From positions 496,001 through 560,000 of the forward strand of contig CABZCN010000001.1 of the NCBI GenBank assembly GCA_902524245.1: a stretch of DNA of 64,000 bases. The letters run 5' to 3'. Under the pieces are notes generated by a model. It made no database searches and was not told where the DNA came from. It worked only from the letters and a program-made list of their open reading frames with translations. Shown here one piece after another: positions 917 to 20,631 of the stretch. The position numbers and the translations under genes are program-made. Each line of letters opens with the position of its first letter. Position 1 is the first letter of the stretch. The DNA comes from an uncultured Alphaproteobacteria bacterium. GTDB lineage: Bacteria > Pseudomonadota > Alphaproteobacteria > HIMB59.

Positions 917-1486
917 TTATTGAGGTGAATTAGATAGTTTGCTTGCTATCTCTAGTATCTTTAAAGTTATTTGTTTTTCTTCCTCTACATATTTTACATC
1001 ATCAGAGACCCAGGTGTTATTATCTTTTTTTTCGCAAAGAAAGTTTGTATTGACACCAGTAGTAATTAAATCTCTGGATAACACCTGTATTTTAATCAAA
1101 CATCTTTGTGAGTTGTTTTTTGAGTTTGTAATCCAATCAGTTTCAATAAATCCACCCATATTGTCAGCAATTTTTAATGGATATGACTTGGTAACCTCTA
1201 ATGAAGCATTCCAAAGAAACGGATTTACAGAGTATTGGTAAACGACATCATTGTTTTTACCTCTAATTAAATCACCAAGGTCTCCCTCTAAACCAAAGAG
1301 GGATTCTCCCCCGGCTCTTTCCTTTGCTTTACATCTCTGGTACTTCATTTTATTACTTTTTAATTTATCTACAGGGTTATCACACTCACCATAAATCTCT
1401 TTTAATCTTTTCTGATTTTTCTCATAGTTTCCTGTACAAGAGTTGATAAAAATAAGCCCTAAAAATAGATAAAAGTATCTAATCAT
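917..1486 (-). CDS. DUF3576 family lipoprotein
   Basis: A 189-residue predicted lipoprotein. It has a hydrophobic N-terminus followed by 'LIFINSC', a plausible lipobox with Cys at about residue 17. The body shows the 'NPFLWNASLEV' and 'GGFIETDWI' stretches I associate with DUF3576, an alphaproteobacterial family of unknown role often encoded just before leuS. Here leuS follows after 2 nt on the same strand, so they probably share a transcript. Envelope location is inferred from the signal sequence. No function is assigned. Confidence 0.8.
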   Translation of the reverse strand: MIRYFYLFLGLIFINSCTGNYEKNQKRLKEIYGECDNPVDKLKSNKMKYQRCKAKERAGGESLFGLEGDLGDLIRGKNNDVVYQYSVNPFLWNASLEVTKSYPLKIADNMGGFIETDWITNSKNNSQRCLIKIQVLSRDLITTGVNTNFLCEKKDNNTWVSDDVKYVEEEKQITLKILEIASKLSNSPQ

Positions 1487-1522
1487 GAAAAATAAATTAG
1501 ATCAATTTTGATAAAAAGAAAC

Positions 1523-1554
1523 AAAAAAAACCAGGGGCAAAAGCACCCCTGGTT
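1523..1554 (-). terminator. Rho-independent terminator after the porin gene
   Basis: A 9-bp perfect stem, AACCAGGGG / CCCCTGGTT, with an 8-nt loop. On the minus strand it is followed at once by a run of eight T (plus-strand A run at 1523-1530). It lies 25 nt beyond the stop of the minus-strand porin gene and separates it from the DUF3576-leuS unit. Confidence 0.9.
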
Positions 1555-1578
1555 GTTTAAAAAGTAATTAGCGTTTGA

Positions 1579-2514
1579 TTAGAAGCTTACGCTTGTTCCA
1601 ACCGCAACAACACTCTCGCTAGTTGAGTTACCTTCAGCAGCAACACCGGCACCAGTTAGGTTTCTGTATTCTGCGAAGATTGATGCTCCACCACCGATTG
1701 ATTGTGAAATTGTGACATCAGTTTTTGAAGATGTGTTGCTGTTAGCATCAAATCCTGAATAACCAACACCCACAGATGCACCACCTAGTGTAGTTGAGTA
1801 TGCAATTGAGTATGCTTCACCTTCTGTAGCTGAAGTATCACCACTTGTAGTTTCGATACCTAAGCTTAATGTTCCGCCACCAGCTGTCATTGTTAAAGCA
1901 CCACCAGCAGAGCTATCTTCTGATCCGTTAGCATCCATTTGAGAAGATGATACAACTAAAGACATGTCGCCAAGAGGTACAGTTAAAGATGCACCTTGAC
2001 CAGTTGTTGTTCCACCGTCAATGTTGTTAGCGTGCGCACCGTCGTATACATATGTTGCAGCAATAGTCATGTCACCAAGTGTTGTTGAACCACTGATACC
2101 TGAACCATCGTCTACAGGAATAGTTACGTCGTTAGTGTGAGTAGGCATATTTACGTCTGCGTGTGTTACTAATTCACCAACAAGACCTGTGCCTGCAGGA
2201 ACTGCTACGTCATCAGCTACTGTAATTGAACCATTTGCAAAACCAAATGTAAGAGCTGTCATACCAGAACCATTACCACCACCACCATTAGAGTCAGGAT
2301 CATTTGTGATCTGACCAGATGTGCTAATTGTTACACCACCGTCAGTAGTTGTTGACATTGAGAATGAGATACCACCACCAATGTGACCTTGTGAGTTACC
2401 ACCTGAGTCAACATACACTGCGTTGGCAGATCCGCTTACGGATATATCTGCATTTGCAGCTGTTGAAAATAAAGCAGCTGATAAAGCAGAAATTGCCATT
2501 AGTATTTTTTTCAT
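1579..2514 (-). CDS. Outer-membrane porin-like beta-barrel protein
   Basis: A 311-residue protein with a clear signal peptide ('MKKILMAISALSAALFSTAANA', cleavage near residue 22). The mature part is rich in Gly, Ser and Thr with alternating polar and hydrophobic residues. It ends in 'VAVGTSVSF', a terminal Phe typical of outer-membrane barrels. It resembles the short general porins of marine alphaproteobacteria and probably forms a diffusion channel. It has its own upstream gap of 130 nt and a strong terminator, as expected for an abundant single-gene transcript. Base composition is visibly richer in GC than its neighbours, consistent with high expression. The exact porin family is not certain. 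Confidence 0.72.
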   Translation of the reverse strand: MKKILMAISALSAALFSTAANADISVSGSANAVYVDSGGNSQGHIGGGISFSMSTTTDGGVTISTSGQITNDPDSNGGGGNGSGMTALTFGFANGSITVADDVAVPAGTGLVGELVTHADVNMPTHTNDVTIPVDDGSGISGSTTLGDMTIAATYVYDGAHANNIDGGTTTGQGASLTVPLGDMSLVVSSSQMDANGSEDSSAGGALTMTAGGGTLSLGIETTSGDTSATEGEAYSIAYSTTLGGASVGVGYSGFDANSNTSSKTDVTISQSIGGGASIFAEYRNLTGAGVAAEGNSTSESVVAVGTSVSF

Positions 2515-2619
2515 AATAAAATTCCTTTCTTATTTATTAGATCTAATACATCGCTAATAATAACGATTTAGAGAAATAATAAACAGATTTCGTTAGTAAT
2601 AGGGTATTTTTGGAGATAA

Positions 2620-2637
2620 TGTTGCATATTTGCAACA
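2620..2637. repeat. Hairpin / inverted repeat upstream of the porin gene
   Basis: A perfect 7-bp inverted repeat TGTTGCA - TATT - TGCAACA. It lies between the 3' end of the TPR-sulfotransferase gene and the porin gene, about 106 nt before the porin start. There is no T tract on either side, so it could be a weak terminator for the upstream gene or a regulatory palindrome for the porin promoter. Confidence 0.4.
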
Positions 2638-2644
2638 CTCAATT

Positions 2645-4273
2645 TTAATCTATATTATAACCAAAAAAATCAGATGATTTAAAAGAAATTCCGTTTTTTT
2701 CCCAGTATTTTCTTTGCATTTTTAGCGCCTCATAAAATTCACTTTTTTTATCTGAAAAGTCGCTTTTTTCAATAGATTTTTTATGAACTGGTGAGCCTAT
2801 TTGACGGATACTGGCTGTTTGAGCAAAAAATCCCCTTCTTTTTTCTTCATCGAATTCTGATTTTATTTCAAGGAATTCATATATTTTTTGCTGATAAAAG
2901 TCTGTTTCGTTAATTAAATCTTCGTATCTAATATCAAGTATGTTTTTTTCTGCTTGAATATTTTTATTCCAGTATAAATTCATTGCTTCAAAGTTTGACA
3001 TGAAAACCCCCAGGTTAAAAAAACTGGCACTATAAGGGATGTTAGTTACGTAGCGTTGTTTATAAAGTGAAATAGCTACATCCCAAGGATTTCTAAAGGT
3101 TCTAATAATTTTTGCTTCAGGGAGAAGTTTTAGTAAGTAACCAATGAATAAAAAATTTTCAGGTAATTTATCAATTATTAAATCATATTTACCTCTCAAG
3201 AAATCTGTTTTTGCTAAATATTGTTCATTAAAATTTTTTACAAATAAATCTGATTTTAAATTCTCTTTATTATTTACAAATTCATCAATTAATTTGAAAG
3301 CACTTAGAAGTTCACCCCCACTTGTTACCTCATCATTTGATGCAATTATAGATTCAATTAAAGTAGTGCCTGATCTTGGTGTTCCTAGTATAAAAATATT
3401 TTTTGATCCAACTTTGTGGTTTGTAGATAAATTGTTTTTCTCATCTTTATAGTGCTCAAAAATTTTACTAATGTTTTTTTGGTAACTAAAAGAATTATAC
3501 CTAAGAGAGTTCATTGTTTCATTATTTCCTAAATGGAAGAACTCCTCTGATTTATTTTTATCTTTCTTTTCATAATATATTGCTAGTGCAAAATAGAGAG
3601 GATGTACAAACCAAAACCTGTCTAACTTATTTTCAAAAACAGTATCATTGTGTTCCAGGTGTTTTAAAGCTTGATCCAATAATTTTTTATCTATCATTGA
3701 CGAATCTATGGTTGCTAATAAATAAAACATATCTGGGTGAAACTGTTGATCTAATAACGATTTTAACATTTCAATATTTTCTTTATCTTTTCCAAGAGCA
3801 ACATTTATTTCAGTTTTAAGTTTTATAGCGTTTGGAAAATGTATGCTGTTTTTCGCATCAGACTTATTAATTTTTTCTAGAGCTATATCAACAAGTTCTA
3901 AAGCTCTATCAAAATCTCTAATTTTTAAATTTACCTCAGCAGGTACGGTGTAACAAAATGGTGAGTCAGGGTCAATTGCCCTAGCTTGCTGGTACATATC
4001 AAGCGATTTTTCGTACTCTTCAAGGGCTTTATAAGAGGCCCCCATATTGATATAATAGTCAAAATCTTTCTCGAGTGGTTTATCTACATAATATTCATTT
4101 AATATTTTTATAGTAGAGTCAAATTGATTTCTTTGGATAAACAAAAATGCAAGAATTTTGATTATTTCCTTATTATTTTTGTTGATTTTATTTAATCTTT
4201 TAGCCTGTTCGTATGCTTTATCGATGTTTCTATTTTTGATAAGATTACGAAGTTCTAAAATTTCTTTTTGCAT
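2645..4273 (-). CDS. TPR-sulfotransferase fusion protein
   Basis: A 542-residue cytoplasmic protein. The N-terminal half (about 1-250) is made of TPR helices, for example 'YYINMGASYKALEEYEKSLDMYQQARAIDP'-type units. The C-terminal half is a sulfotransferase domain. 'ILGTPRSGTTLIESII' (about 295-310) is the 5'-phosphosulfate-binding loop of PAPS-dependent sulfotransferases, and 'IIRTFRNPWDVAISLYKQRY' is the 3'-phosphate-binding segment. It probably moves sulfate from PAPS to a glycan or small-molecule acceptor, with the TPRs as a partner-binding scaffold. The acceptor cannot be told from sequence. It is divergent from the 4292 gene, whose product looks distantly related. Confidence 0.85.
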   Translation of the reverse strand: MQKEILELRNLIKNRNIDKAYEQAKRLNKINKNNKEIIKILAFLFIQRNQFDSTIKILNEYYVDKPLEKDFDYYINMGASYKALEEYEKSLDMYQQARAIDPDSPFCYTVPAEVNLKIRDFDRALELVDIALEKINKSDAKNSIHFPNAIKLKTEINVALGKDKENIEMLKSLLDQQFHPDMFYLLATIDSSMIDKKLLDQALKHLEHNDTVFENKLDRFWFVHPLYFALAIYYEKKDKNKSEEFFHLGNNETMNSLRYNSFSYQKNISKIFEHYKDEKNNLSTNHKVGSKNIFILGTPRSGTTLIESIIASNDEVTSGGELLSAFKLIDEFVNNKENLKSDLFVKNFNEQYLAKTDFLRGKYDLIIDKLPENFLFIGYLLKLLPEAKIIRTFRNPWDVAISLYKQRYVTNIPYSASFFNLGVFMSNFEAMNLYWNKNIQAEKNILDIRYEDLINETDFYQQKIYEFLEIKSEFDEEKRRGFFAQTASIRQIGSPVHKKSIEKSDFSDKKSEFYEALKMQRKYWEKNGISFKSSDFFGYNID

Positions 4274-4291
4274 ATATTTAATATATAGATA

Positions 4292-5242
4292 ATGAATAAA
4301 ATGTCTTTTTTAAATAAATACCAATATCATTATCATAGTAAACACCTTGAAAACTTCATCACTTCAAAAAACTACTCAGAGGTATTTGCTTATTTAGAAA
4401 AAATATCAGATAACAAAAAAGTTTTCCATGATCTCTCTCTAAAATTTGTAAATCAAGCCATTAACCAATCAAGCCAAGACATATCAAAAAATAAGATTGT
4501 TTGGATTAATTCTTTTCTACCCGATGATAATAAATATGTATCTTCTTTTATTGAGAATTACTTATTAAGTTTTAATTCATTAAAACAATCAATAAACTCA
4601 TATCAAAACGAAATAAGTGATATTTTAATCAAACCTGAAAAGATTGATTTCAATACCTTGATTAACCAATCTTATTTTTTTCAATGGATGATTATAAACA
4701 GACAAAAATTATCTTTTAAATTTATCAAAAATAATCTCCCATTTTTTTCAACAGATGATAATTATAATTTTACCAAACCAAGCATTACTCAAGCCTATAT
4801 TTTTATTATCAATCATCCTTATAACATTTACCAATCTCTAAAAACAAAAAATAATGACGATCAGGAAATAGCTAGAAATATTTTTCTTAACTTAGATGGA
4901 AAAAGTTTTGATCAACAAATCAACAATATAAGTTTTAATCTTACAAACAAAGGCTGGCATACCAATACTTTTAGTTGGACAGATGCAAATGTTTTAAATT
5001 CCCTTAAAGGAAAGATTATCTCAAAAAAAGATTTGTATGAAAATACATATGAAGTATTGAGTTCAATAATTCTTCATTTAATCCAATCTGGTGTAGGGAT
5101 AGAATTAAATTATGACTTAATAGATAACTTTGTTAAAAATAATCCAATTAAAATAGAAACCAATTCAAATGAACTCTCTCAGAAGGAGAAAAAATTTCTT
5201 AATAAATACGTTGATGATATAATTGATATGTATGATATTTAG
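4292..5242 (+). CDS. Divergent sulfotransferase-like protein lacking a P-loop
   Basis: A 316-residue soluble protein with no signal peptide. I do not recognise it with confidence. 'FIINHPYNIYQSLK' (about 167-180) resembles the 3'-phosphate-binding helix of sulfotransferases ('NPWDVAISLYK' in its neighbour). The stretch 'GKIISKKDLYENTYEVLSSIILHL' resembles their 'RYEDLI' region. The N-terminal PAPS loop ('PRSGTT') is absent, so it may be a non-catalytic paralogue. It is read divergently from the TPR-sulfotransferase with 18 nt between starts, and 17 nt before yggS on the same strand. Confidence 0.5.
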   Translation: MNKMSFLNKYQYHYHSKHLENFITSKNYSEVFAYLEKISDNKKVFHDLSLKFVNQAINQSSQDISKNKIVWINSFLPDDNKYVSSFIENYLLSFNSLKQSINSYQNEISDILIKPEKIDFNTLINQSYFFQWMIINRQKLSFKFIKNNLPFFSTDDNYNFTKPSITQAYIFIINHPYNIYQSLKTKNNDDQEIARNIFLNLDGKSFDQQINNISFNLTNKGWHTNTFSWTDANVLNSLKGKIISKKDLYENTYEVLSSIILHLIQSGVGIELNYDLIDNFVKNNPIKIETNSNELSQKEKKFLNKYVDDIIDMYDI

Positions 5243-5259
5243 TCTGCAATTTTTTTTTA

Positions 5260-5889
5260 ATGACCATTAATTATGATCAATTAAGTGAGATTAATAAAAC
5301 TCTTGCTAGTTTCCCTAATGCAAAATTGCAGATAGTAACAAAAAATCGCGATTTCAAAATAGTAAAAGAACTGATTGATAAAGGATATCACCTTTTTGGA
5401 GAAAACAAGGTCCAAGAGGCTCAAGATAAATTTAAAAACATTATAGATCCAAATTTAGAATTGCATTTAATTGGACCTCTACAAACAAATAAAGCCAAGG
5501 TGGCTCTCCAGCTTTTTGACTGCATACAAAGTATTGATAGGGCTAAACTTGTTAATGAAATAGCAAAGCATCGAACGAAAATAGCTTTTAAAACAAAAAC
5601 TTTTTTTATTCAAATAAATATTGGAAGAGAAAGTCAAAAATCTGGTGTATTACCAGAGGACCTTGATGATCTTTATAACTTATGTGTTGAAAAAAAGCTT
5701 AAAATTTCAGGATTAATGTGTATTCCTCCTTTAAACAAACCTAGTAAAGAATATTTTCAAGAAATGAAATTTTTAAGGAATAATTTAAATAGCAATCTGA
5801 TATTGAGTATGGGTATGAGTGATGATTATAAAATCTCTTTAGAGTGTGATTCAAATTTGATTAGAATAGGTTCAAGAATATTTAATTGA
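5260..5889 (+). CDS. yggS: YggS/PLPBP-family pyridoxal phosphate-binding protein
   Basis: A 209-residue single-domain protein of the YggS/PROSC family, which binds pyridoxal 5'-phosphate and helps hold vitamin B6 and amino-acid pools in balance. Visible marks are 'LQIVTKNRDF' (position of the PLP lysine, family form VSKxR), 'GENKVQEAQDKF', 'LHLIGPLQTNKAKVALQLFDCIQSID', 'LMCIPP' and the C-terminal 'LSMGMSDDYKISLE...LIRIGSRIFN'. Its length matches the family (about 220). The TGA stop overlaps the TTG start of the LolA-like gene (TTGA), so the two are translationally coupled. Confidence 0.93.
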   Translation: MTINYDQLSEINKTLASFPNAKLQIVTKNRDFKIVKELIDKGYHLFGENKVQEAQDKFKNIIDPNLELHLIGPLQTNKAKVALQLFDCIQSIDRAKLVNEIAKHRTKIAFKTKTFFIQINIGRESQKSGVLPEDLDDLYNLCVEKKLKISGLMCIPPLNKPSKEYFQEMKFLRNNLNSNLILSMGMSDDYKISLECDSNLIRIGSRIFN

Positions 5890-11722: not shown

Positions 11723-11797
11723 GCGGGCGTAGCTCAGGGGTAGAGCGCAACCTTGCCAAGGTTGAAGTCGAGGGTTCGAATCCCTTCGCCCGCTCCA
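11723..11797 (+). tRNA. tRNA-Gly (anticodon GCC), CCA encoded
   Basis: All four arms fold by eye. The acceptor stem is GCGGGCG/CGCCCGC, the D arm GCTC...GAGC, the anticodon stem CAACC/GGTTG with loop TTGCCAA (anticodon GCC), and the T arm GAGGG-TTCGAAT-CCCTT. The discriminator is T, followed by an encoded CCA at 11795-11797. The 3' half of this gene, from the anticodon loop onward, recurs at 12839 and 14868, so the gene looks like the target of repeated site-specific integration. Confidence 0.97.
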
Positions 11798-11811
11798 ATT
11801 AAGAGTCTATT

Positions 11812-12672
11812 TTAATCAACAAATTTTAAACTAGGATTAACGTTGATGTCCACATCTTCTATAGAATTACCCCTTCTCACCTCATCATAATATACGATTT
11901 GTGTAGGTGTCTCTCCTTTGAAAGATGTGTAATTACTTATGAATGACTGATAAATACCGTGTTTAAAGTAAATTGACTTTGGCTCAAAAAATATTGGTGA
12001 CTCTGGGATTTTAACAATGTTATTCCCATCAACCCAAGCATCTATTCTCTTGTTTTCAAAATCTAAGCACAAAGAAATATCTGTCCATACACCTTTCATG
12101 CTTTCTAATGTTTTTAATTTATAATATTTTGATACATCTTTGACATTATCTCTAGAGCCACTTAGTTTATGCCAATTTAAGTACAAATTTCCTTTTCTAG
12201 CATCAATTTGAATCAACGGCGGGAATGAAGATAAACTATTTGCTTTTCCAGATGGACCGCCCTTTTGGTGTACCTGACCTAATGTAGTGCTAACTTTTTT
12301 AATATCAGTAAAATTATTAGATAATTTTATACTGTAACCATAACATTGTTTTCCAGATATTGGTTGATTTGGCTCTGATGAAAGTTCAATCCTTTGTCTA
12401 TCATTATCGCAGTCACTCCAATTTTCATCACCAAAACAATCACCGTTTCTAAGTTCAAATTTTTGATAATAGTCCCCACTTCGTGATTTTGAATTGTCCT
12501 CTATATAGCTAAAGTTATATTTATTTTGGCCCATATAATTTTTATGAAAAGTAAAACCACTATTTGTTGATTCTATAAACAATTTGCCATTTTGATCCAA
12601 AAGGAAATTATTAGCAAAAGCATAAGTTTTGAATACTAATAAAAAAAATATTATTTTAAATATCTCAACCAT
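11812..12672 (-). CDS. Secreted polysaccharide lyase (Polysacc_lyase, PF14099-like)
   Basis: A 286-residue protein with a signal peptide ('MVEIFKIIFFLLVFKTYAFA'). The core 'FELRNGDCFGDENWSDCDNDRQRIELSSE' and the later 'GVWTDISLCLDF', 'RIDAWVDGNNIVKIP' and 'IVYYDEVRRGNS' follow the jelly-roll layout of the heparin/glucuronan-lyase-like family. It would cut uronic-acid-containing glycan in the periplasm or outside the cell. It lies alone between the intact tRNA-Gly and the first tRNA fragment, so it may be the cargo of one integration unit. The substrate is not predictable. Confidence 0.78.
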   Translation of the reverse strand: MVEIFKIIFFLLVFKTYAFANNFLLDQNGKLFIESTNSGFTFHKNYMGQNKYNFSYIEDNSKSRSGDYYQKFELRNGDCFGDENWSDCDNDRQRIELSSEPNQPISGKQCYGYSIKLSNNFTDIKKVSTTLGQVHQKGGPSGKANSLSSFPPLIQIDARKGNLYLNWHKLSGSRDNVKDVSKYYKLKTLESMKGVWTDISLCLDFENKRIDAWVDGNNIVKIPESPIFFEPKSIYFKHGIYQSFISNYTSFKGETPTQIVYYDEVRRGNSIEDVDINVNPSLKFVD

Positions 12673-12751
12673 TGATAATTTAATTATTCTATTAATTTAT
12701 AGACATCGGAGTAAATTAGTAACATCATTTCACTATAAAAGTATCAGTTTA

Positions 12752-12776
12752 GGTGTTAAACAAGTTGTTCAACACC
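12752..12776. repeat. 25-bp imperfect palindrome
   Basis: GGTGTT-A-AACAA-G-TTGTT-C-AACACC: 11 of 12 pairs match around a single central G. It sits in the 288-nt gap between the lyase gene and the glycosyltransferase, 63 nt before the displaced tRNA-Gly fragment. It could be a regulator or recombinase site left by a mobile element. No T tract, so not a standard terminator. Confidence 0.55.
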
Positions 12777-12838
12777 AACTTTTCTAAAACCTCAATAGAT
12801 TAAATGTTAAAGAAGTAGAAGAAGAAACGACTTTATCA

Positions 12839-12883
12839 TTGCCGAGGTTAAAGTCGAGGGTTCAAATCCCTTCGCCCGCTCCA
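12839..12883 (+). repeat. Displaced tRNA-Gly 3' fragment 1 (putative att scar)
   Basis: 45 nt matching the tRNA-Gly gene from the anticodon loop (TTGCC) to the encoded CCA, with 3 mismatches. The 5' half of the tRNA is absent, so this cannot be a working tRNA. Its 18 nt ending at TTGCC resemble those of fragment 2 (AACnAnTTTnTnATTGCC) more than the real tRNA, as expected if both came from the attachment sites of related elements. Confidence 0.85.
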
Positions 12884-12960
12884 AAATTCAAACGTTTTAA
12901 TTCTCTTGTCGGTTAATGCTGGGATATAATTTTTTACAATAGTGACAGTTAGTATGCTTA

Positions 12961-13698
12961 TTAAATCCTTTTATCTAAAAAATAATTTAAAAGCGCCATT
13001 GTCTGTTCAATATAAATTTTCGATTTTGGACCTTTAAAGTGTAGTAATTGAGATCCACTCCTCATTATTTGTTCGAGTTTTTTTGGTGTTAAAATTTCTT
13101 TGATTTCATATTGATAGATTTTTGGATCTAATACTCCAAATTTTTTTAATTTCTCACGTGTTTCTAAAAATAAAGAATATTGATCCCCGTACCATCTATG
13201 AAATCTTTCTGGAAGTTTTAAACAAATTTCTAATAAATTTTTAAAAAAAAATTGCTGATTTCCTTTTGTTGCAATCGCACAAAATAAAAAAGGCATCACT
13301 TCGTTTGCTGTTTTATTGACAAATTCCTCATAGTGCTCAGGGTAATTATAATTAATTTTAAAATCTTTTAGCCTAGGAGATAAAAAAACATTTATATCTT
13401 CAATATTTGGAAGTGATAATTTATTTATAAAAACACAATCTGCATCACAAAAAAAAGTGTAATCAGTCTCAATTTCATAAAAAGCATACGATTGCAGTCT
13501 TGCAACCATAATCTTACTTGATAAATCAAATCTTTTTACAGAATTAACGCCTATAATTTCTTTAGTTTCGTGATTGGTTAACTGAACTACATTAATACTG
13601 TCACCCATCGTTAATCTTATTGATTGAACCAAAAACTGAGGTATTTCGATCTTGTTACCTATCCAAAAAAAGCAAATTGTTTTATTTATTTTATTCAT
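12961..13698 (-). CDS. GT-A fold glycosyltransferase-like protein
   Basis: A 245-residue soluble protein. 'YTFFCDADCVFINKL' (about 83-97) carries a DxD-type metal/nucleotide-sugar motif. 'FHRWYGDQYSLFLE' and the C-terminal 'LLHFKGPKSKIY' match the acceptor-side Asp and terminal His-Lys-Gly pattern of GT8-like enzymes. It probably adds a sugar to a surface glycan. It is divergent from the FkbM methyltransferase gene with 13 nt between starts, inside the block bounded by the two tRNA fragments. Confidence 0.68.
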   Translation of the reverse strand: MNKINKTICFFWIGNKIEIPQFLVQSIRLTMGDSINVVQLTNHETKEIIGVNSVKRFDLSSKIMVARLQSYAFYEIETDYTFFCDADCVFINKLSLPNIEDINVFLSPRLKDFKINYNYPEHYEEFVNKTANEVMPFLFCAIATKGNQQFFFKNLLEICLKLPERFHRWYGDQYSLFLETREKLKKFGVLDPKIYQYEIKEILTPKKLEQIMRSGSQLLHFKGPKSKIYIEQTMALLNYFLDKRI

Positions 13699-13711
13699 TT
13701 ATTATTTTTAG

Positions 13712-14542
13712 GTGGAGTCTAAAAACCCAATCAAAATTATCAATGAAATAAATAATTTAAAACTTAAAAATAAATATGATCACATTAATGTTATGAAATT
13801 AAGATCATTACCAAGTTTTGACGGTATTGCAGAGTTTAAATTTAAAAGTTTTTCTTTTTATATGCTCAATATTGCAAAAGACGATGGCGTAGTTTTAAAA
13901 TATTTGTGGAGAGATAAGTATGAAAAAACATCTTTAAATTTATGGTATGAGATCACAAGAGGTGAGGGATTTAGCATAGACGTAGGTGCCCACACTGGCA
14001 TTTATTCAATTATTGGTAGCATCAATAAAAAATTACCACACGTGGTTTCCATTGAACCGCATTTTCTTAACTATGCAAGATTATTAGATAACTTAAAAAT
14101 CAATTCTTTGAGTGCGAAACACTGTTTTCTTGCAGCTGCGTCAAGCCAAAATGGAACACTTAAATTTGATGCTTCTATTAACACCTATCACACCTCAGGT
14201 GGAAAAATTTCTGAGAAAGGTTCAACTTCTGTAAACTCAATAATGATAGATAATATTAATTTTTCAAAAAGAGTTGTAGCTATGAAAATTGACACAGAAG
14301 GGCATGAGTACAGTGTCTTATTGGGCGCACAAAAAACAATACAAATATATAAACCCGAAATACTTTTTGAGATCAATAGTGAAAGCTTTAATTCATGCAC
14401 AAATTTATTGAAGAAATATGGTTACAATTTTTATTATATTAATGAAGAAAATGAAAAAATTGTTCCCGTAAATAAATTTGATGAAAGTCTATTAAAAGAT
14501 GAAGGTTCAAATTGTTTAGCATCTTTAAAAAATCGTACATAG
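13712..14542 (+). CDS. FkbM-family SAM-dependent methyltransferase
   Basis: A 276-residue protein. 'GFSIDVGAHTGIYSIIGS' (about 90-107) is the SAM-binding motif I. 'VVSIEPHFLNYARLLDNLKIN' and 'VVAMKIDTEGHEYSVLLGA' complete the FkbM signature. These enzymes O-methylate sugars or polyketides; here a surface-glycan sugar is likely. The start is GTG at 13712, with the next in-frame ATG about 30 residues later. The 3' flank is a 374-nt gene-poor stretch with decayed sequence and tRNA fragment 2. Confidence 0.88.
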   Translation: MESKNPIKIINEINNLKLKNKYDHINVMKLRSLPSFDGIAEFKFKSFSFYMLNIAKDDGVVLKYLWRDKYEKTSLNLWYEITRGEGFSIDVGAHTGIYSIIGSINKKLPHVVSIEPHFLNYARLLDNLKINSLSAKHCFLAAASSQNGTLKFDASINTYHTSGGKISEKGSTSVNSIMIDNINFSKRVVAMKIDTEGHEYSVLLGAQKTIQIYKPEILFEINSESFNSCTNLLKKYGYNFYYINEENEKIVPVNKFDESLLKDEGSNCLASLKNRT

Positions 14543-14601
14543 TACATCTATAATAGTTTTAATTAGTTTTCTTTTAATTAATTTTACTTATTCTTTAAAA
14601 A

Positions 14602-14700
14602 CTAATTAGGCGATTCCTTCATTTTTTGTAACTTTTTTTCCAATTTACAGTATATCTTGCTCCAACCGTATAAAGATAAGTTTACATGCCATTCTGATAA
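14602..14700 (-). pseudogene. Possible C-terminal remnant of an unknown gene
   Basis: On the minus strand a 32-codon frame ending in TAG at 14602 reads 'LSEWHVNLSLYGWSKIYCKL'... then a Lys-rich tail. It has no start and is cut by a stop upstream. It looks like a protein C-terminus but is too short to place, and chance is possible. Confidence 0.25.
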
Positions 14701-14867
14701 TCACCATATAGGAATTACCCTTCCCCCAACTCAAACAAGGGATTAATAAAAATAAAATTTTCATACAAATTTTTTTTACTATGTTTGCGATAGATGTTTA
14801 ATACAAAAAAATTAAAAACTATAATAAAATAAACGTGAAAAGCGGAGTAGAGATAACTATTTTGTTA

Positions 14868-14893
14868 TTGCCAAGGTTGAAGTCGAGGGTTCG
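14868..14893 (+). repeat. Displaced tRNA-Gly 3' fragment 2 (putative att scar)
   Basis: A 26-nt perfect match to the tRNA-Gly gene (TTGCCAAGGTTGAAGTCGAGGGTTCG), continuing as a degenerate copy to about 14912 (about 11 of 19 further bases match). The stop of the next minus-strand gene lies only 23 nt beyond the perfect part. Confidence 0.8.
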
Positions 14894-14916
14894 TATCGCC
14901 TCAACTGCTAGAGTCG

Positions 14917-16368
14917 CTAAAGTAAGTAATTTAATTCACCTTGAAGTCTCAAGATTACATCTTCCCAATTATTTCTTTTTTTTTGTCTTATTATAATCAT
15001 ATTTTTATACCATTGTGGTGTATTAAAATCCTCGCTTGACCAACGCCAATCAGCTGCTTTTGAAAGTAAGAGATATGTTTTCTTGTTCATTGAGCCGGCA
15101 AGATGAATTAACGACGTATCAATAGATACTACGAGGTCCATATTTTGCACTATGGCGCTAGTATCCTCAAAGTCATTCCATTGTGAATTGTCACCTAAAT
15201 AGACTATATCATTTGTCTTTTTCAATATTTTTTTATCATCTTCGTATATGTCTTTTTGAATAATAAATAATCTAAAATATTTTGTTAATGGCAAAAAATG
15301 CTTCAGGTCAATCTTTCTTCTATTTTCATTAATTTGATTAACATTTCCTGAAATTGCAATTCCTATATTTTTTTTATCTTTTGATAGAGATAAAATATTT
15401 CTCCACAAACTAACCTTTTCATTATCACTTTTAAAATATTGGTTGAGTGATTGAATATCGTTTGCTTTAATATCAAATAGATACGGTAAAGACATTACAG
15501 GGCATTGAAAATCAAAATTATTTTTAGATGCATCCCCAGTAATTTCACAATTAAATTGCCTTTTTAAAAAAGCTATTAAAGGTTTTTGTACCTCAAACGT
15601 TACCTGAGCACCTGATTTAATCAATAAATTAACATACCTCGAAAATTGAATTGTGTCCCCTAATCCTTGTTCGTACCACACAAGAATATTTTTACCTGTT
15701 ACTGAATTTATAGAATCGAGACTTGCTATATTTTGATATCTTTTTTTTGTGGAATTTCTTGTAAGCCATCTATATTCGTAATTTTTAAGCCCATCTTTAT
15801 AGTTTTGCATTGATAGCTGACATAATGATAATGCGTGTATTGAGTCATATTCTTTTGGATCTATAGAAATTGCTTTATTTAGAAATAATATTGCCTCCTC
15901 ATAATTACCTTCAACTTCATTAATTGAACCTAAATTATAGAAAACTACTGATCTATTATTATTTATTTTTAGAGATTCCTTAAAATAATATATTGCTTTT
16001 TTGTAATCACCTAATTTTCTATAGGTTACACCAATGTTGACAAGACCATCATAGTTTTTTGGATTAATTAGGAGTGACCTCTCGAAAAAATCTAAGGCTG
16101 CAGAAAATTTTTTTAAACTATAATTTATAATCCCCATATAAATTAATCCTAGTTCACTGTTTTTATTTAAATTAAAAAGTCTCTCTGAAAATTTAAGGGC
16201 GTCTTTGAATTTTTTTTGTTCAATTAAAACTGGTATCAGATAAGTATATATATTTAAATTAGCTGGGTAGCGTCTTACGAGACCTAAAAAGATGTCTTCA
16301 GCATTTAAATAATCTTTATTTTTTAGACAATTTATTCCCTTTTTTATTTGCTCTAAAACTTCAGTCAT
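14917..16368 (-). CDS. TPR protein with GT9-like glycosyltransferase domain
   Basis: A 483-residue protein. Residues about 1-200 form TPR repeats ('AALDFFERSLLINPKNYDGLVNIGVTYRKLGDYKKAIYYFKESLKIN' type; several units). Residues about 225-483 resemble a heptosyltransferase-like GT-B domain: 'NILVWYEQGLGDTIQFSRYVNLL' (acceptor-side Gly loop), 'NIGIAISGN', 'DLVVSIDTSLIHLAGSMNKKTYLLL' (nucleotide-sugar site). Such fusions are common in marine bacterial glycan clusters. The substrate is unknown. It shares architecture with the 18266 gene, so the two are probably paralogues. Confidence 0.82.
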   Translation of the reverse strand: MTEVLEQIKKGINCLKNKDYLNAEDIFLGLVRRYPANLNIYTYLIPVLIEQKKFKDALKFSERLFNLNKNSELGLIYMGIINYSLKKFSAALDFFERSLLINPKNYDGLVNIGVTYRKLGDYKKAIYYFKESLKINNNRSVVFYNLGSINEVEGNYEEAILFLNKAISIDPKEYDSIHALSLCQLSMQNYKDGLKNYEYRWLTRNSTKKRYQNIASLDSINSVTGKNILVWYEQGLGDTIQFSRYVNLLIKSGAQVTFEVQKPLIAFLKRQFNCEITGDASKNNFDFQCPVMSLPYLFDIKANDIQSLNQYFKSDNEKVSLWRNILSLSKDKKNIGIAISGNVNQINENRRKIDLKHFLPLTKYFRLFIIQKDIYEDDKKILKKTNDIVYLGDNSQWNDFEDTSAIVQNMDLVVSIDTSLIHLAGSMNKKTYLLLSKAADWRWSSEDFNTPQWYKNMIIIRQKKRNNWEDVILRLQGELNYLL

Positions 16369-16585
16369 ATATTTTTAAAATCTTGACAAAATTAATTATA
16401 TTAATCAACTTTAACTTTTACAGGATATATAAGCTATAAAACTTAATTTGTTTTAAAATATTATTTTTCGTTATATTAATTTTAGCAACGAATTTTCTAA
16501 TTAAATAAATATGACGTTTGAGATTTAAAATCAATTCTTGTAATATCAATTTGAATTATAAGCATCTTATACAACAAATTAGAAT

Positions 16586-17386
16586 ATGTTAGTTGACCTT
16601 GAAAAAAAGAAATTACAGTTTTCTTCAGAGTCTAGTATAAATAAAGCCATAGTGATATGCTCACATGAGAGAAGTGGCACTCACTTTTTAATGAATTCAA
16701 TTGCTTATAACTCGAATTATTCAGTTGAACCATTTATTAATTTTGATTACCTACCATTAGGAGATATAGTAAATTTTCACAAACCAGATAATGTTCATAA
16801 TTTTATTGAAAAGATATCATATGTTGAAAAAGATAATATTAAATATGGTTTATCAAGTCTGATAAAATCCCATCATCCAGCATACATATTCAAAAATTGT
16901 TTTAATAGTGATGATATTATTTTTTTCTACATTCATAGGAATCCTATCGACACATTATTATCTTATTGGAATTTTATAAATCATTGGGATTGGCATGAAG
17001 GGCCTAAAGAAAAAAATCCTATAAACTTTGTTAAATCCATTCCGGAGGGACAAATGCAAAGGTACCAAAAAAAATCATATGATAGTATTTTTGTTAGATG
17101 GGCTAATCATGTAAGTGAGTGGGTCGAAATATCAAAGAAGTATAAAAACATATACCTAGTGAAATATCACGATCTTGATAATGATTTTGATAGAACAATG
17201 AATGATATACTTAACTTCGTAGGCTTAAGTTGTGAAAAAATAATAAGACCTCAAAAAAAGAACTATGTCTTGACAAATAAAATAAATATTCACGACAATG
17301 AATTAAAGAAATTTAAACACTTTATTAATTCAAGCTTGTCAGAATTTCCAATTTTAAGAGAATTTTATGAAAAAAAAAATTTCTGA
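16586..17386 (+). CDS. Sulfotransferase domain protein
   Basis: A 266-residue PAPS-dependent sulfotransferase. 'AIVICSHERSGTHFLMNSIA' (about 22-41) is the phosphosulfate-binding loop, and 'FFYIHRNPIDTLLSYWNFINHW' (about 113-134) carries the 3'-phosphate-binding Arg and Ser. 'IYLVKYHDL' matches the 'RYEDL' segment. It probably sulfates a surface glycan made by the surrounding transferases. Directly after its TGA, in the same frame, lies a methyltransferase-like C-terminal remnant, so its 3' side marks a recombination or decay point. Confidence 0.88.
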   Translation: MLVDLEKKKLQFSSESSINKAIVICSHERSGTHFLMNSIAYNSNYSVEPFINFDYLPLGDIVNFHKPDNVHNFIEKISYVEKDNIKYGLSSLIKSHHPAYIFKNCFNSDDIIFFYIHRNPIDTLLSYWNFINHWDWHEGPKEKNPINFVKSIPEGQMQRYQKKSYDSIFVRWANHVSEWVEISKKYKNIYLVKYHDLDNDFDRTMNDILNFVGLSCEKIIRPQKKNYVLTNKINIHDNELKKFKHFINSSLSEFPILREFYEKKNF

Positions 17387-17548
17387 GAATTATTTATTAT
17401 AACAAAAAAGACTTTAAGCGACGGAAGGAATGCTCATATTATTCAACAACTGTCTAGGTGGTGGCTGTTAAAACTTTGTAAATTTTTTAATGTTGAGTTT
17501 TTAAAAAATACCAAAAGTGGATTTATTGTTTTGTGTAAAGCTATATAA
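17387..17548 (+). pseudogene. Remnant C-terminus of a SAM-methyltransferase-like protein
   Basis: Directly in frame after the sulfotransferase TGA are 53 codons that read as protein: 'TKKTLSDGRNAHIIQQLSRW', then 'WLLKLCKFFNVEFLKN', ending 'GFIVLCKAI' and TAA. The pattern, a final beta-strand pair closing on 'SGFIVLCK', is that of the end of a class I methyltransferase. There is no start codon or SAM motif. It is either a decayed gene or the tail of a once-fused domain. Confidence 0.5.
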
Positions 17549-17550
17549 AA

Positions 17551-18237
17551 TTAGATCTTAGTATTCATCATTTCTTGTAATTTATTTTTCCAAATTTCAT
17601 GGTAGTCACAAAAACGGTATTCAGGGAACCATGGTCCACCCTCAGTATAATGAATTGCTTTGGGTGCCCCATCAGTTGGTTCTTTATACCAACCTACCAA
17701 CCAGTTCCACTCATGGCTAATTTCACCTATTTCATCATCTTCTAGCCAGCTAAAACGATGAAGGAATTTTCCAGTTATTTTTGGATCGTTCACTAATTCT
17801 GATGTAATTTTCTTGTTTGAAGGATGATTACAATTCCACAATACAAGAGAACTCCAATTTTTTCTCGGGTAAATGGATTGAATTCTCCCATCCATTTTCG
17901 TATCTCCTTTTGGTGTATAATCGTGTTTCACACACATAACTGCATATTTATCATTTACTTGAGAAAATAACTCTTCGACTGAATTCAAAAACAATATATC
18001 ACAATCACAAAATAATGCCCAACCAGTATAATCATTTAGCACAGGCACTAAAAATCTAGAAAAAGTAAATTCTGTTGAGCCGAGTTTATCTTCATCCCTT
18101 TTATAAAGTCCTTTTGACTTCAATTCATTTAGTTTTAACGGAAAAATTTTTGCCAACTTTGACTTCGATTTAATACTATAGCTACACACTTGATACGCTA
18201 AGTCTTCTCTGCTGTCGTATCCAATAAAAATATTCAC
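17551..18237 (-). CDS. GT8-like glycosyltransferase
   Basis: A 228-residue protein beginning 'MNIFIGYDSREDLAYQVCSYSI'. 'GWALFCDCDILFLNSVEELF' carries the DxD metal/nucleotide-sugar motif in its CDCD form (about 93-96). 'SSLVLWNCNHP' and 'AIHYTEGGPWF' match the downstream glycosyltransferase 8-like motifs, the last giving the metal-binding His. It probably adds a hexose in surface-glycan assembly. It lies 28 nt downstream of the TPR/GT9-like gene on the same strand, so it is likely co-transcribed with it. Confidence 0.8.
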   Translation of the reverse strand: MNIFIGYDSREDLAYQVCSYSIKSKSKLAKIFPLKLNELKSKGLYKRDEDKLGSTEFTFSRFLVPVLNDYTGWALFCDCDILFLNSVEELFSQVNDKYAVMCVKHDYTPKGDTKMDGRIQSIYPRKNWSSLVLWNCNHPSNKKITSELVNDPKITGKFLHRFSWLEDDEIGEISHEWNWLVGWYKEPTDGAPKAIHYTEGGPWFPEYRFCDYHEIWKNKLQEMMNTKI

Positions 18238-18265
18238 TATTAAAACCTATTGTAGTTGTTTACAT

Positions 18266-19930
18266 TTACAAGAAGTTTTCTAGCTCTTTATTTAAATTAG
18301 ATATACAACTACTCCAATCATTGTCATTTTCCATCCTGACGGGTTTAATTGAGGGATACCAAATTATATTATTATCTGTATTTAATCCCCAATACCATAA
18401 TTTTCCATCATTAAATGGTAAAAGTAAAAAAGTCTTTACACCCAACTTTCCAGCTATATGGGCGTTTGAATTACTAACTGTTATGACAAAGTCGCAACTT
18501 TTTACTAATCCGGCAGTACCATCAATATCATTATAACAATCAACTTTATGATCCAAGAAAATAGATTTACCAATCCTTTTTTCTAATATATTAATTTCTT
18601 CTTTTTCATCAGAGTATTGAAGATTTATAAACTCTATATCATTTAAAAGAAAAAGATTACTTAACTGTTCCAACTCTATTGATTTCTTTTTACCAAAAAT
18701 TTTATTTGTGCTTTTCCACGATATTCCACACCTTAACTTTTTATTTTTCTTTGGGACTATATTATTATCAAAAGAATAAAAGATTTCTTTTCTAAGACTA
18801 TTGTAATTTATAAGATTTTGAAAAAACTGACCTAATGAACCCATTGGTAAGTGGTAATCATAACTGTCATAATTCTCTAAAGATCGATAGTCGATTATTT
18901 CAATATATTTATAAATTTTTTTGAAAAATGGAATAAGTTTTTTATTAACAGCAATAGTAATTTTTTCAAACTGATCTTGTATCACTTCGATGAATTGTGA
19001 ATAAAGTATTTGTTCTCCAATTCCTTGCTCTCCATAAATTAGAATATTTTTTTTTGGTTGGTTTTTGTCCCAAACTGGTTTGAGAAAAGAATTACGAATT
19101 TTTTTTAATAATACAAAACTTTGTAGATTGTATCTTGACTCATGATATTTCCACCCTTTATCAAAATCTTTCATAAATAAATAACATAAAGATAAGTGAT
19201 AAAGGGCATCTGCGTTTTTTGGTTCTTTTTCTAAAATATTTTGATTAACTTCTATTGCACTCTTATAATCACCCTTAGATTTTAAAATATTTCCTATAAT
19301 TAAATTGGATTTAACATAAGTTTGATCATTTTGTTCATTTGCTTCAATTATTTGATTAATTATTTTGAAGGCTTCATCATAATTACCACAATCATTTTCT
19401 ATGTTTGCTAGAGATAATTTTGCGTCAATAAAATTTTTATTTAAAAAAATTGATTTCTCAAATGACTTCTTGGCCTCTTCAAATTGTCCATTATCTCTAA
19501 AAACTTTACCTAAAATATAATATGATAAAGTATTTTCTTTAATCGATAGAGCTTTATTAAGATTTACAATAGATTTTTGATAATCTCTTACAAGTCTATA
19601 ACATACACCTACTTGATGGTAAGGTTCATGTCTATTATGGTTTAATCTTGTACAGTTTTCGTAATATTCTATAGCCTTCTCAAAATTTAATAAACCAAGG
19701 TAACAATTAGCTAAATTAAAATTTGTATCATAGTCACTTTTGTTACTATCAAGATAAATGCCAAAAAATTTAATTGCTTCCCCAAATTTCTTTTCATTCG
19801 CAAAGATCAATCCGTAATAAAAATTGTATTTTAAATTTTTTTTTTCGGTTTTTAGTAAATTAAAAATTAAACTTTTTGCTTCATGAAATTTATTTTCTTT
19901 TAGAAGATTTACAATTTTTTCTTCACTCAT
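18266..19930 (-). CDS. TPR protein with GT9-like glycosyltransferase domain
   Basis: A 554-residue protein with about eight TPR-like units (residues about 1-270). A GT-B-like domain follows: 'NILIYGEQGIGEQILYSQFIEVI', 'RCGISWKSTN', and 'CDFVITVSNSNAHIAGKLGVKTFLLLPF'. It shares this architecture with the 14917 gene. It precedes the GT8-like gene and probably works in the same glycan pathway. The donor sugar and acceptor are unknown. Confidence 0.82.
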   Translation of the reverse strand: MSEEKIVNLLKENKFHEAKSLIFNLLKTEKKNLKYNFYYGLIFANEKKFGEAIKFFGIYLDSNKSDYDTNFNLANCYLGLLNFEKAIEYYENCTRLNHNRHEPYHQVGVCYRLVRDYQKSIVNLNKALSIKENTLSYYILGKVFRDNGQFEEAKKSFEKSIFLNKNFIDAKLSLANIENDCGNYDEAFKIINQIIEANEQNDQTYVKSNLIIGNILKSKGDYKSAIEVNQNILEKEPKNADALYHLSLCYLFMKDFDKGWKYHESRYNLQSFVLLKKIRNSFLKPVWDKNQPKKNILIYGEQGIGEQILYSQFIEVIQDQFEKITIAVNKKLIPFFKKIYKYIEIIDYRSLENYDSYDYHLPMGSLGQFFQNLINYNSLRKEIFYSFDNNIVPKKNKKLRCGISWKSTNKIFGKKKSIELEQLSNLFLLNDIEFINLQYSDEKEEINILEKRIGKSIFLDHKVDCYNDIDGTAGLVKSCDFVITVSNSNAHIAGKLGVKTFLLLPFNDGKLWYWGLNTDNNIIWYPSIKPVRMENDNDWSSCISNLNKELENFL

Positions 19931-20016
19931 ATTATTAACGATTTAATTTAAAAATATATTTATTTTCCATCAGAATTGTAAATCAAACTTATTTTTTTTA
20001 TATAATCCAAAAAGTG

Positions 20017-20631
20017 TCATTTAATTAAATCAATTAATAAAATTATCGATATTGTTATAAAAATATATCCAATTATCTTTTGGATATGCTGAGATTTGTT
20101 TTTTATAAATTCTAGAATTGTACCTGTTGTTACTAAATTAACCAAGAATACGTACCATAGTGCATCAACTATACTAGCAATTAATACTAACGAAATATTT
20201 AAATAAAGCTCATTATCTGTAGACATAAATTGAGAATAAATAGCAACAAACCAAATTAGAATCTTTGGATTTAGTAAAGAAATGCTTAATCCTTCTAAAA
20301 ATGACTGCCCACTATCTATTAATTTTTCTTTTTTAAATTCTATTTTTTTTATTGTAATTATTGAATTAATTCCAAGGTAAAACAAAAAAACTATAGATAC
20401 AATTTTTATAACATTAAAAAGCATAATGTTAGTTTCAATTATTAAACCGATACCTAACACAGCAAATAATGCATAGATGCCTATTCCAAATCCATGCCCT
20501 AACGCCGTCAAAATTCCATTAAATTTATTTTTAAATATTGCGTTGTTTATAACAACTACCATACTAGGACCAGGAGACATAGCTCCTAGCAAGCATATAA
20601 ATGCAATTTGTAAAAATAAGAATATTGACAT
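20017..20631 (-). CDS. LysE/RhtB-family exporter
   Basis: A 204-residue membrane protein with about six hydrophobic segments. It has the family's N-terminal hallmark 'LLGAMSPGPSMVVVINNAIF' (about 15-34) and 'GLSISLLNPKILIWFVAIYSQF' in the middle. LysE/RhtB proteins export amino acids; the substrate here cannot be told. It is the last gene of the long minus-strand string from tsaD, 6 nt after the HAD gene. Confidence 0.9.
   Translation of the reverse strand: MSIFLFLQIAFICLLGAMSPGPSMVVVINNAIFKNKFNGILTALGHGFGIGIYALFAVLGIGLIIETNIMLFNVIKIVSIVFLFYLGINSIITIKKIEFKKEKLIDSGQSFLEGLSISLLNPKILIWFVAIYSQFMSTDNELYLNISLVLIASIVDALWYVFLVNLVTTGTILEFIKNKSQHIQKIIGYIFITISIILLIDLIK

Follow-up and report, generated by a model that had tools for sequence, protein, structure and literature searches.

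Small gene cassettes at a tRNA-Gly gene of HIMB59 Alphaproteobacteria: probable serial integration and candidate mobilisation in trans

Streamlined marine bacteria are thought to be poor in mobile elements, but they do exchange genes for surface glycans and for defence. Repeats of a tRNA end occur in the additive flexible genomic islands that are described for Ca. Actinomarinales (PMC7771536), for the fGI-2 island of Methylophilaceae (PMC10872708) and for Alteromonas (PMC4119200); in the parts of these papers considered here, the inserted units range from 330 bp upwards, and one such island holds glycan genes. In cis-mobilizable elements (CIMEs), the integration genes are lost and the attachment (att) sites are kept, and the elements are stacked by new insertions at the same site (PMC5704250). 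Here, we describe a tRNA-Gly(GCC) locus at which small gene cassettes alternate with 3' fragments of the tRNA, in a stretch of 64,000 nucleotides (hereafter the window; C1:496001-560000 of a 1.37-Mb genome) from an uncultured alphaproteobacterium of the HIMB59 lineage. The portion of the HIMB59 island paper considered here (PMC10734472) does not describe this locus or the cassette form. The features that concern us most are the following:

11723-11797, + strand: intact tRNA-Gly(GCC), the attB/attL target and sole tRNA found by ARAGORN
11798-12838: unit 1, the lyase cassette, 1041 bp, matched with exact borders by the second unit of G007
11812-12672, - strand: polysaccharide lyase (PF14099), cargo of unit 1
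12694-12838: right-end module of arm family A, whole or in part also in units of G007, G021, G004, G018, G010 and G066
12752-12776: inverted pair of putative arm-type sites, GGTGTTAAAC-aagtt-GTTCAACACC, in the right end of unit 1
12839-12883, + strand: tRNA 3' fragment 1, a displaced att site, tRNA positions 31-75, 42/45 (93%)
12884-14867: unit 2, 1984 bp, apparently older and decayed; left end similar to the G035/G060 type, right end degenerate
12961-13698, - strand: putative glycosyltransferase of 245 aa with a conserved C-D-A-D motif and no Pfam match
13712-14542, + strand: FkbM-family methyltransferase (PF05050)
14868-14909, + strand: tRNA 3' fragment 2, the most decayed att site, tRNA positions 31-72

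The intact gene and its two 3'-half fragments (42/45 and 26/26 bases) had been reported in an earlier note on this DNA, and ARAGORN, alignment and a scan of shuffled windows bear the report out. In an ungapped scan of the 64-kb window, fragment 1 scores 38.4 and fragment 2 scores 28.8, compared with 15.8 for the best of four shuffled windows, and no other tRNA-Gly fragment rises above noise. Fragment 2 corresponds at 14868-14897 to tRNA positions 31-60 (29/30, 97%, with the first 26 bases exact) and has a weak extension to 14909. Fragments starting at position 31 also occur in six other genomes of the genus. The common flank to the left of the fragments, pointed out in the same note, is real: the 145 bp at 12694-12838 recur, wholly or partly, at 83-92% identity in relatives, where most of the units that share them hold other cargo, and to the left of fragment 2 stands a diverged form of this sequence (74% over 104 bp compared with G004/G018). 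The crossover can be placed tentatively in the anticodon loop TTGCCAA (tRNA positions 31-37), which is flanked by the inverted stem CAACC/GGTTG.

We consider it probable (at about 0.82) that the region belongs to an additive genomic island, of which it is the part next to the tRNA, that this island was built up as units integrated site-specifically, one after another, at the anticodon loop of tRNA-Gly(GCC), that most units of this kind are mobilised in trans, and that the units of the window have decayed. Each incoming circular unit would bring its own copy of the tRNA 3' half; recombination would rebuild an intact tRNA at the left border and leave the former 3' half on the right-hand side of the insert. 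Every unit would thus close with a fragment, and the newest unit would usually lie nearest to the tRNA. Units that have putative arm sites and encode no integrase would be mobilised by the tyrosine integrases of other elements. Serial tRNA-targeted integration, as the earlier note had proposed, is strongly supported by several lines of comparison with relatives: exact borders of insertion, decay of the fragments, permuted order of the units, horizontal exchange that includes the lyase unit, and integrase genes beside the att sites of some units.

The relatives are mostly single-cell genomes of uncultured marine Alphaproteobacteria, referred to here by G and L numbers. Within the genus, the neighbours of the locus are mostly conserved, with LON-substrate-domain and thioredoxin-TPR proteins upstream and LysE, HAD, AICARFT and others downstream. 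The gap between tRNA-Gly and LysE ranges from almost nothing (G026, G028 and G033, where LysE directly follows the tRNA) up to many kb. In both families, many genomes have fragments of the tRNA-Gly 3' half behind the same tRNA. Most of the fragments begin at positions 23-27 (second family), 31 (the window's genus) or 42-54 (on the T-loop side), and because several start points recur, more than one crossover point seems to be used. Across the order, successive att copies at this tRNA enclose 68 units of 0.5-13.7 kb; most are smaller than 4 kb, and most measure 0.5-2 kb. Comparison of filled with empty sites places the difference exactly at the 3' end of the tRNA, which is the pattern of gain and loss that the earlier note had suggested looking for. 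The insert of G004 relative to G036 consists of 4.4 kb plus a 45-bp tRNA copy, while the sequences agree at 91.2% over 993 bp upstream and at 90.3% over 1000 bp downstream from the att border. Beyond two units, the downstream sequence of G018 aligns with that of G005 from its first base (97.2% over 1000 bp), and the sequence downstream of the lyase unit aligns with G024 from base 1 after the tRNA end. Fragments farther from the tRNA are mostly equally or more decayed, with L077 and L081 as exceptions; the window fits this rule, with 45 matching positions at 93% and then 30 at 97%. In L081 (AG-359-G09), four tandem units at 1127-5384 each close with a 3' copy of tRNA-Gly, and no longer array with near-perfect att sites was found here. 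The whole tRNA-Gly gene is duplicated by the elements G035:C1:14114-20277, G060:C4:122189-129532 and G011:C1:188462-194393.

Repeats about one helical turn apart have the look of the arm-type sites of lambda-type integrases. Such pairs stand at both ends of many of the relatives' units, where at the level of sequence they may be taken as putative arms; in the window, recognisable arms are left only at the right end of unit 1. Of 42 non-redundant units, 18 have at the left end, and 24 at the right end, a 7-mer that returns after exactly 11 bp; the average for shuffled left ends is 0.28, and stretches from the middle of units contain no such pair. In 16 of 19 units, the motif of the left end is also found at the right end, compared with 1.1 expected. 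The paired direct repeats fall into classes, namely GGTGTTAAAC (A, with 12-bp spacing), TTGTGACA (D), CAATATAGTT (T), GTAGCC (C), GGGACA (G) and others, each standing at a near-constant distance from the tRNA. Perfect matches to the left arm pair of family A are confined to the window's genus. The arms of this family bear a loose resemblance to dif, for which reason they might be regarded as Xer half-sites. In family D, the same arms are found on units without an integrase (G011, G042, G048u2 and L106u2) and on integrase-bearing ones (G035, G060, G059, G046 and G037), which suggests movement in trans and makes this family its clearest case. Since many integrase-less units keep putative arms at both ends, they look like cassettes mobilised in trans and not just like ruins. 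The description of the window's segments as small cargo-only or decayed elements suits the two units of the window, which appear decayed; carried over to the order, it would not hold as a picture of mere ruins, as many units keep putative arms at both ends.

A tyrosine integrase is encoded beside the att site in seven of the 68 units, at the right end in G035, G060, G059, G046 and G037 and at the left end in G041 and L153. An alignment of three of these integrases shows no variation in the catalytic residues R-H-R-H-Y (in G035, R194, H267, R270, H293 and Y302). The statement that no integrase is visible thus stands for the units of the window and falls for the relatives, and the search for a tyrosine recombinase next to other copies of tRNA-Gly fragments, which the earlier note had recommended, finds it there at the same att sites. 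Within the genus of the window, one autonomous family has the left-end class of window unit 2. Six further units contain integrase remnants only, mostly N-terminal (G055, L106, L107 and G054 among the carriers), and no integrase was detected in the remaining units with three integrase queries. A PF00589 search of 60 relatives gave, among the matches listed beside att sites, only the seven units and the remnants. The window's own genome has only two PF00589 proteins; both sizes recur throughout the genus, and the two are probably XerC and XerD. No tRNA-Gly integrase was found in this genome. Truncated integrase N-termini of about 25-100 codons adjoin the att site in L106, L107, G055, G054 and L092, and their persistence looks as if a left arm region within the integrase gene had been retained.

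Recombination systems of other origins were rejected. Serine recombinases as drivers gave no PF00239 match in 60 genomes, the control search being positive in 10 of 14 reference genomes. As for phages as the origin of the att site, L035 is the one viral contig that contains the tRNA 3' half, and it has 62% GC and is apparently unrelated; a match to a phage record amounts to no more than about 50 bp resembling a tRNA, in an Agrobacterium phage; and the attP core of family A has no match in viral contigs.

Units have moved between genomes without their surroundings. The lyase units of the window and of G007 are 92.8% identical over 1027 bp, compared with 75.1% for the upstream flank and 71.3% for core genes, and in G007 the lyase unit sits second, behind a 979-bp single-gene FkbM unit. 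The lyase tree conflicts with the core genes of the hosts: the core genes reject the grouping G000+G007+G024 of the lyase tree (approximately unbiased test, p-AU 3e-6), and the lyase data reject the core clade G007+G006+G011 (p-AU 0.013). Most of the unit pairs compared are 92-99% identical with flanks at 77-94%; the sulfotransferase pair of L118 and G049 is reversed, with the unit at 76% and the flank at 86%. Integrase-less units of 0.5-4.4 kb share their borders and are 92-99% identical between hosts that differ by 6-29% in flanks or core genes, and such units therefore seem to have travelled without encoding an integrase themselves. Cassettes are also permuted. At least 10 sequences of the second family have a cassette of about 528 bp with an open reading frame of 86 aa, which is the first, the second or the third unit in line. 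In G049/L118 this cassette is preceded, and in G045/L090 it is followed, by a sulfotransferase cassette of about 1.25 kb. The 86-aa protein has no Pfam match and is encoded by the only gene of the second family's commonest cassette (506-549 bp), which comprises the smallest units found here; its gene lies at L067:3066-3359, L068:15001-15294 and L073:16289-16549 and in units of L081, L090, L106, L118, L120, L123 and L149. At L077:5728-7311, the 86-aa gene lies in one 1.5-kb unit together with a sulfotransferase, and the two are not separated by an att site; the unit appears to be two cassettes fused through loss of the site.

The earlier note had named tandem duplication in relatives as the finding that would undo its proposal. 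On this explanation, simple tandem or partial duplication of the tRNA region would have made the fragments, with unrelated genes in between, and the fragments are in fact direct repeats of the tRNA. However, they are 3' parts with few recurring starts (mostly q23-27, q31 and q42-54 of the tRNA), and the sequence to their left is common to units of different cargo, unlike the tRNA's own upstream sequence. The exact filled and empty borders in relatives and the shared end modules refute duplication, to which we leave almost no probability, and permuted units likewise keep exact borders. It is also unlikely that the units of the window are ruins of ordinary integrase-bearing islands and that small integrase-less units were never mobile as such. 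The truncated integrase pieces that persist in several units, and the missing or degenerate left arms in the window, would fit such an origin; the highly similar integrase-less units with the same borders, described above, are found in different orders in diverged genomes, and this speaks against it.

Several points weigh against integration with mobilisation in trans. Its support is comparative throughout and does not come from observed excised circles or integration events. No integrase-bearing element with family A arms was found in 52 genomes of the genus, and a search for the arm-pair pattern across 162 genomes of the order did not find one either. The lyase unit is without left arm sites in the genomes checked, and its movement is not fully explained. 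Unit 2 shows no sign of recent transfer, its identity (73.5%) being about that of the core genes (71.3%), and is therefore probably old. Another way to shuffle units would be homologous recombination between the repeats of 45-51 bp, and one may imagine units that were founded by old integrations and are now moved mainly by RecA-type recombination between tRNA repeats and end modules. For this, homology is available in the 45-51 identical bases and in end modules of about 100-190 bp at 83-99%, and the scarcity of encoded integrases (7/68) would agree with it. It leaves unexplained, however, the exact 11-bp paired repeats that stand at both ends and never mid-unit, the transfer of units without chromosomal flanks, and the several distinct arm families at one tRNA, and we judge it improbable. 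Serial integration with mobilisation in trans remains the reading that we prefer. A wider proposal, to which we give an even chance, would be a tRNA-anchored, integron-like system, in which integrase-less units of one to few genes with a complete attP, made up of the tRNA 3' half and paired arm-type sites at both ends, are moved in trans by several different tyrosine integrases sharing one tRNA target, and form an exchangeable array of glycan, defence and transport genes.

As to the units of the window, both look like decayed members of such a system, unit 1 being without left arms and unit 2 having degenerate ends. The left-end arm pair that would match the right end of unit 1, and which is present in G004, G010 and G066, is missing from it. 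The stop codon of its lyase lies 15 bp from the tRNA, and in the other lyase-bearing relatives the lyase likewise stands immediately after the tRNA or a fragment. The left end of unit 2 (12884-12950) resembles the integrase-bearing G035/G060 elements, but has a single degenerate repeat. The gene content is as first described, a lyase and then a glycosyltransferase with FkbM, given the PF14099 and PF05050 matches and the C-D-A-D motif, which is consistent with GT-A glycosyltransferases; this cargo modifies or cuts glycans. The extent given at first, 11723-14912, was too short, as the island runs on to about 20000, where the conserved LysE resumes:

14910-20016: remainder of the variable island, without recognisable att sites
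14917-16368: TPR protein
16586-17386: sulfotransferase
17551-18237: GT8-like protein
18266-19930: TPR protein
20017-20631, - strand: conserved LysE-type transporter, right border of the island

The relatives' units carry a BcnI/MvaI-type restriction-modification pair, McrB-like and type III restriction proteins, as well as an MFS transporter, sugar-transport genes, sulfotransferases and many small proteins of unknown function. In L057 and L058, the first unit (4.4 kb) is a BcnI/MvaI-type restriction-modification cassette with family A ends that is 99% identical between the two. The elements of G035 and G011 contain HNH-endonuclease-like, primosomal and replication-initiation-like genes, and judging from this content some larger members look satellite-like. 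The G011 element, which has the replication-initiation-like gene, is a relative of the G035/G060 element from which the integrase has been lost. No relaxase or secretion genes were found among the unit proteins scanned, which cover part of the units.

The locus suggests an explicit mechanism for the exchange of such genes, in which tiny units with tRNA att sites and putative integrase arms would travel without a recombinase. The arm signature, with 11-bp-spaced pairs at both ends, lets such units be found in other genomes and their families be matched to integrases, and what has been a tRNA-linked hypervariable region becomes a testable recombination system.

Additive tRNA islands, cis-mobilizable elements and tycheposons are already known, and the locus shares features with each of them. 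As in the additive islands of the papers cited above, to the extent considered here, a tRNA is targeted by successive cassettes and tRNA-end repeats mark recent insertions: the same tRNA-Gly locus with flanks conserved in the genus ranges from empty to several kb, and a direct repeat of the tRNA end closes the inserted cassettes. The considered parts of those papers do not describe arm sites at the cassette ends, integrase-bearing partners or several specificities per tRNA. The units resemble CIMEs in that attL/attR are kept and integration genes are lost, most of the 68 units being without an integrase. CIMEs, however, derive from conjugative or mobilizable elements and move in cis with a neighbour, whereas the units described here often consist of one or a few genes, stand in many cases alone with putative arms at both ends, and had no conjugation genes where scanned. 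Tycheposons, as presented in the parts of PMC10872708 considered here, are likewise tRNA-linked cargo elements of planktonic bacteria, but they measure 4-200 kb and have a tyrosine recombinase, while most units here measure 0.5-2 kb and lack one; the units of the window are 1.0 and 2.0 kb long with no recombinase inside, which is present in 7/68 units elsewhere. Integrons and clusters of attC sites lacking integron-integrases (CALINs; PMC11389934) are also reshuffled arrays of small cassettes whose integrase is possibly encoded elsewhere. Unlike these, the units at tRNA-Gly appear to use the tRNA 3' half as their site and not attC, have putative arm-type repeats at both ends, and place the newest unit next to the tRNA. 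To the known systems the locus adds an arm signature on single-gene integrase-less units, arms shared with integrase-bearing units, several specificities per tRNA, and permuted cassettes.

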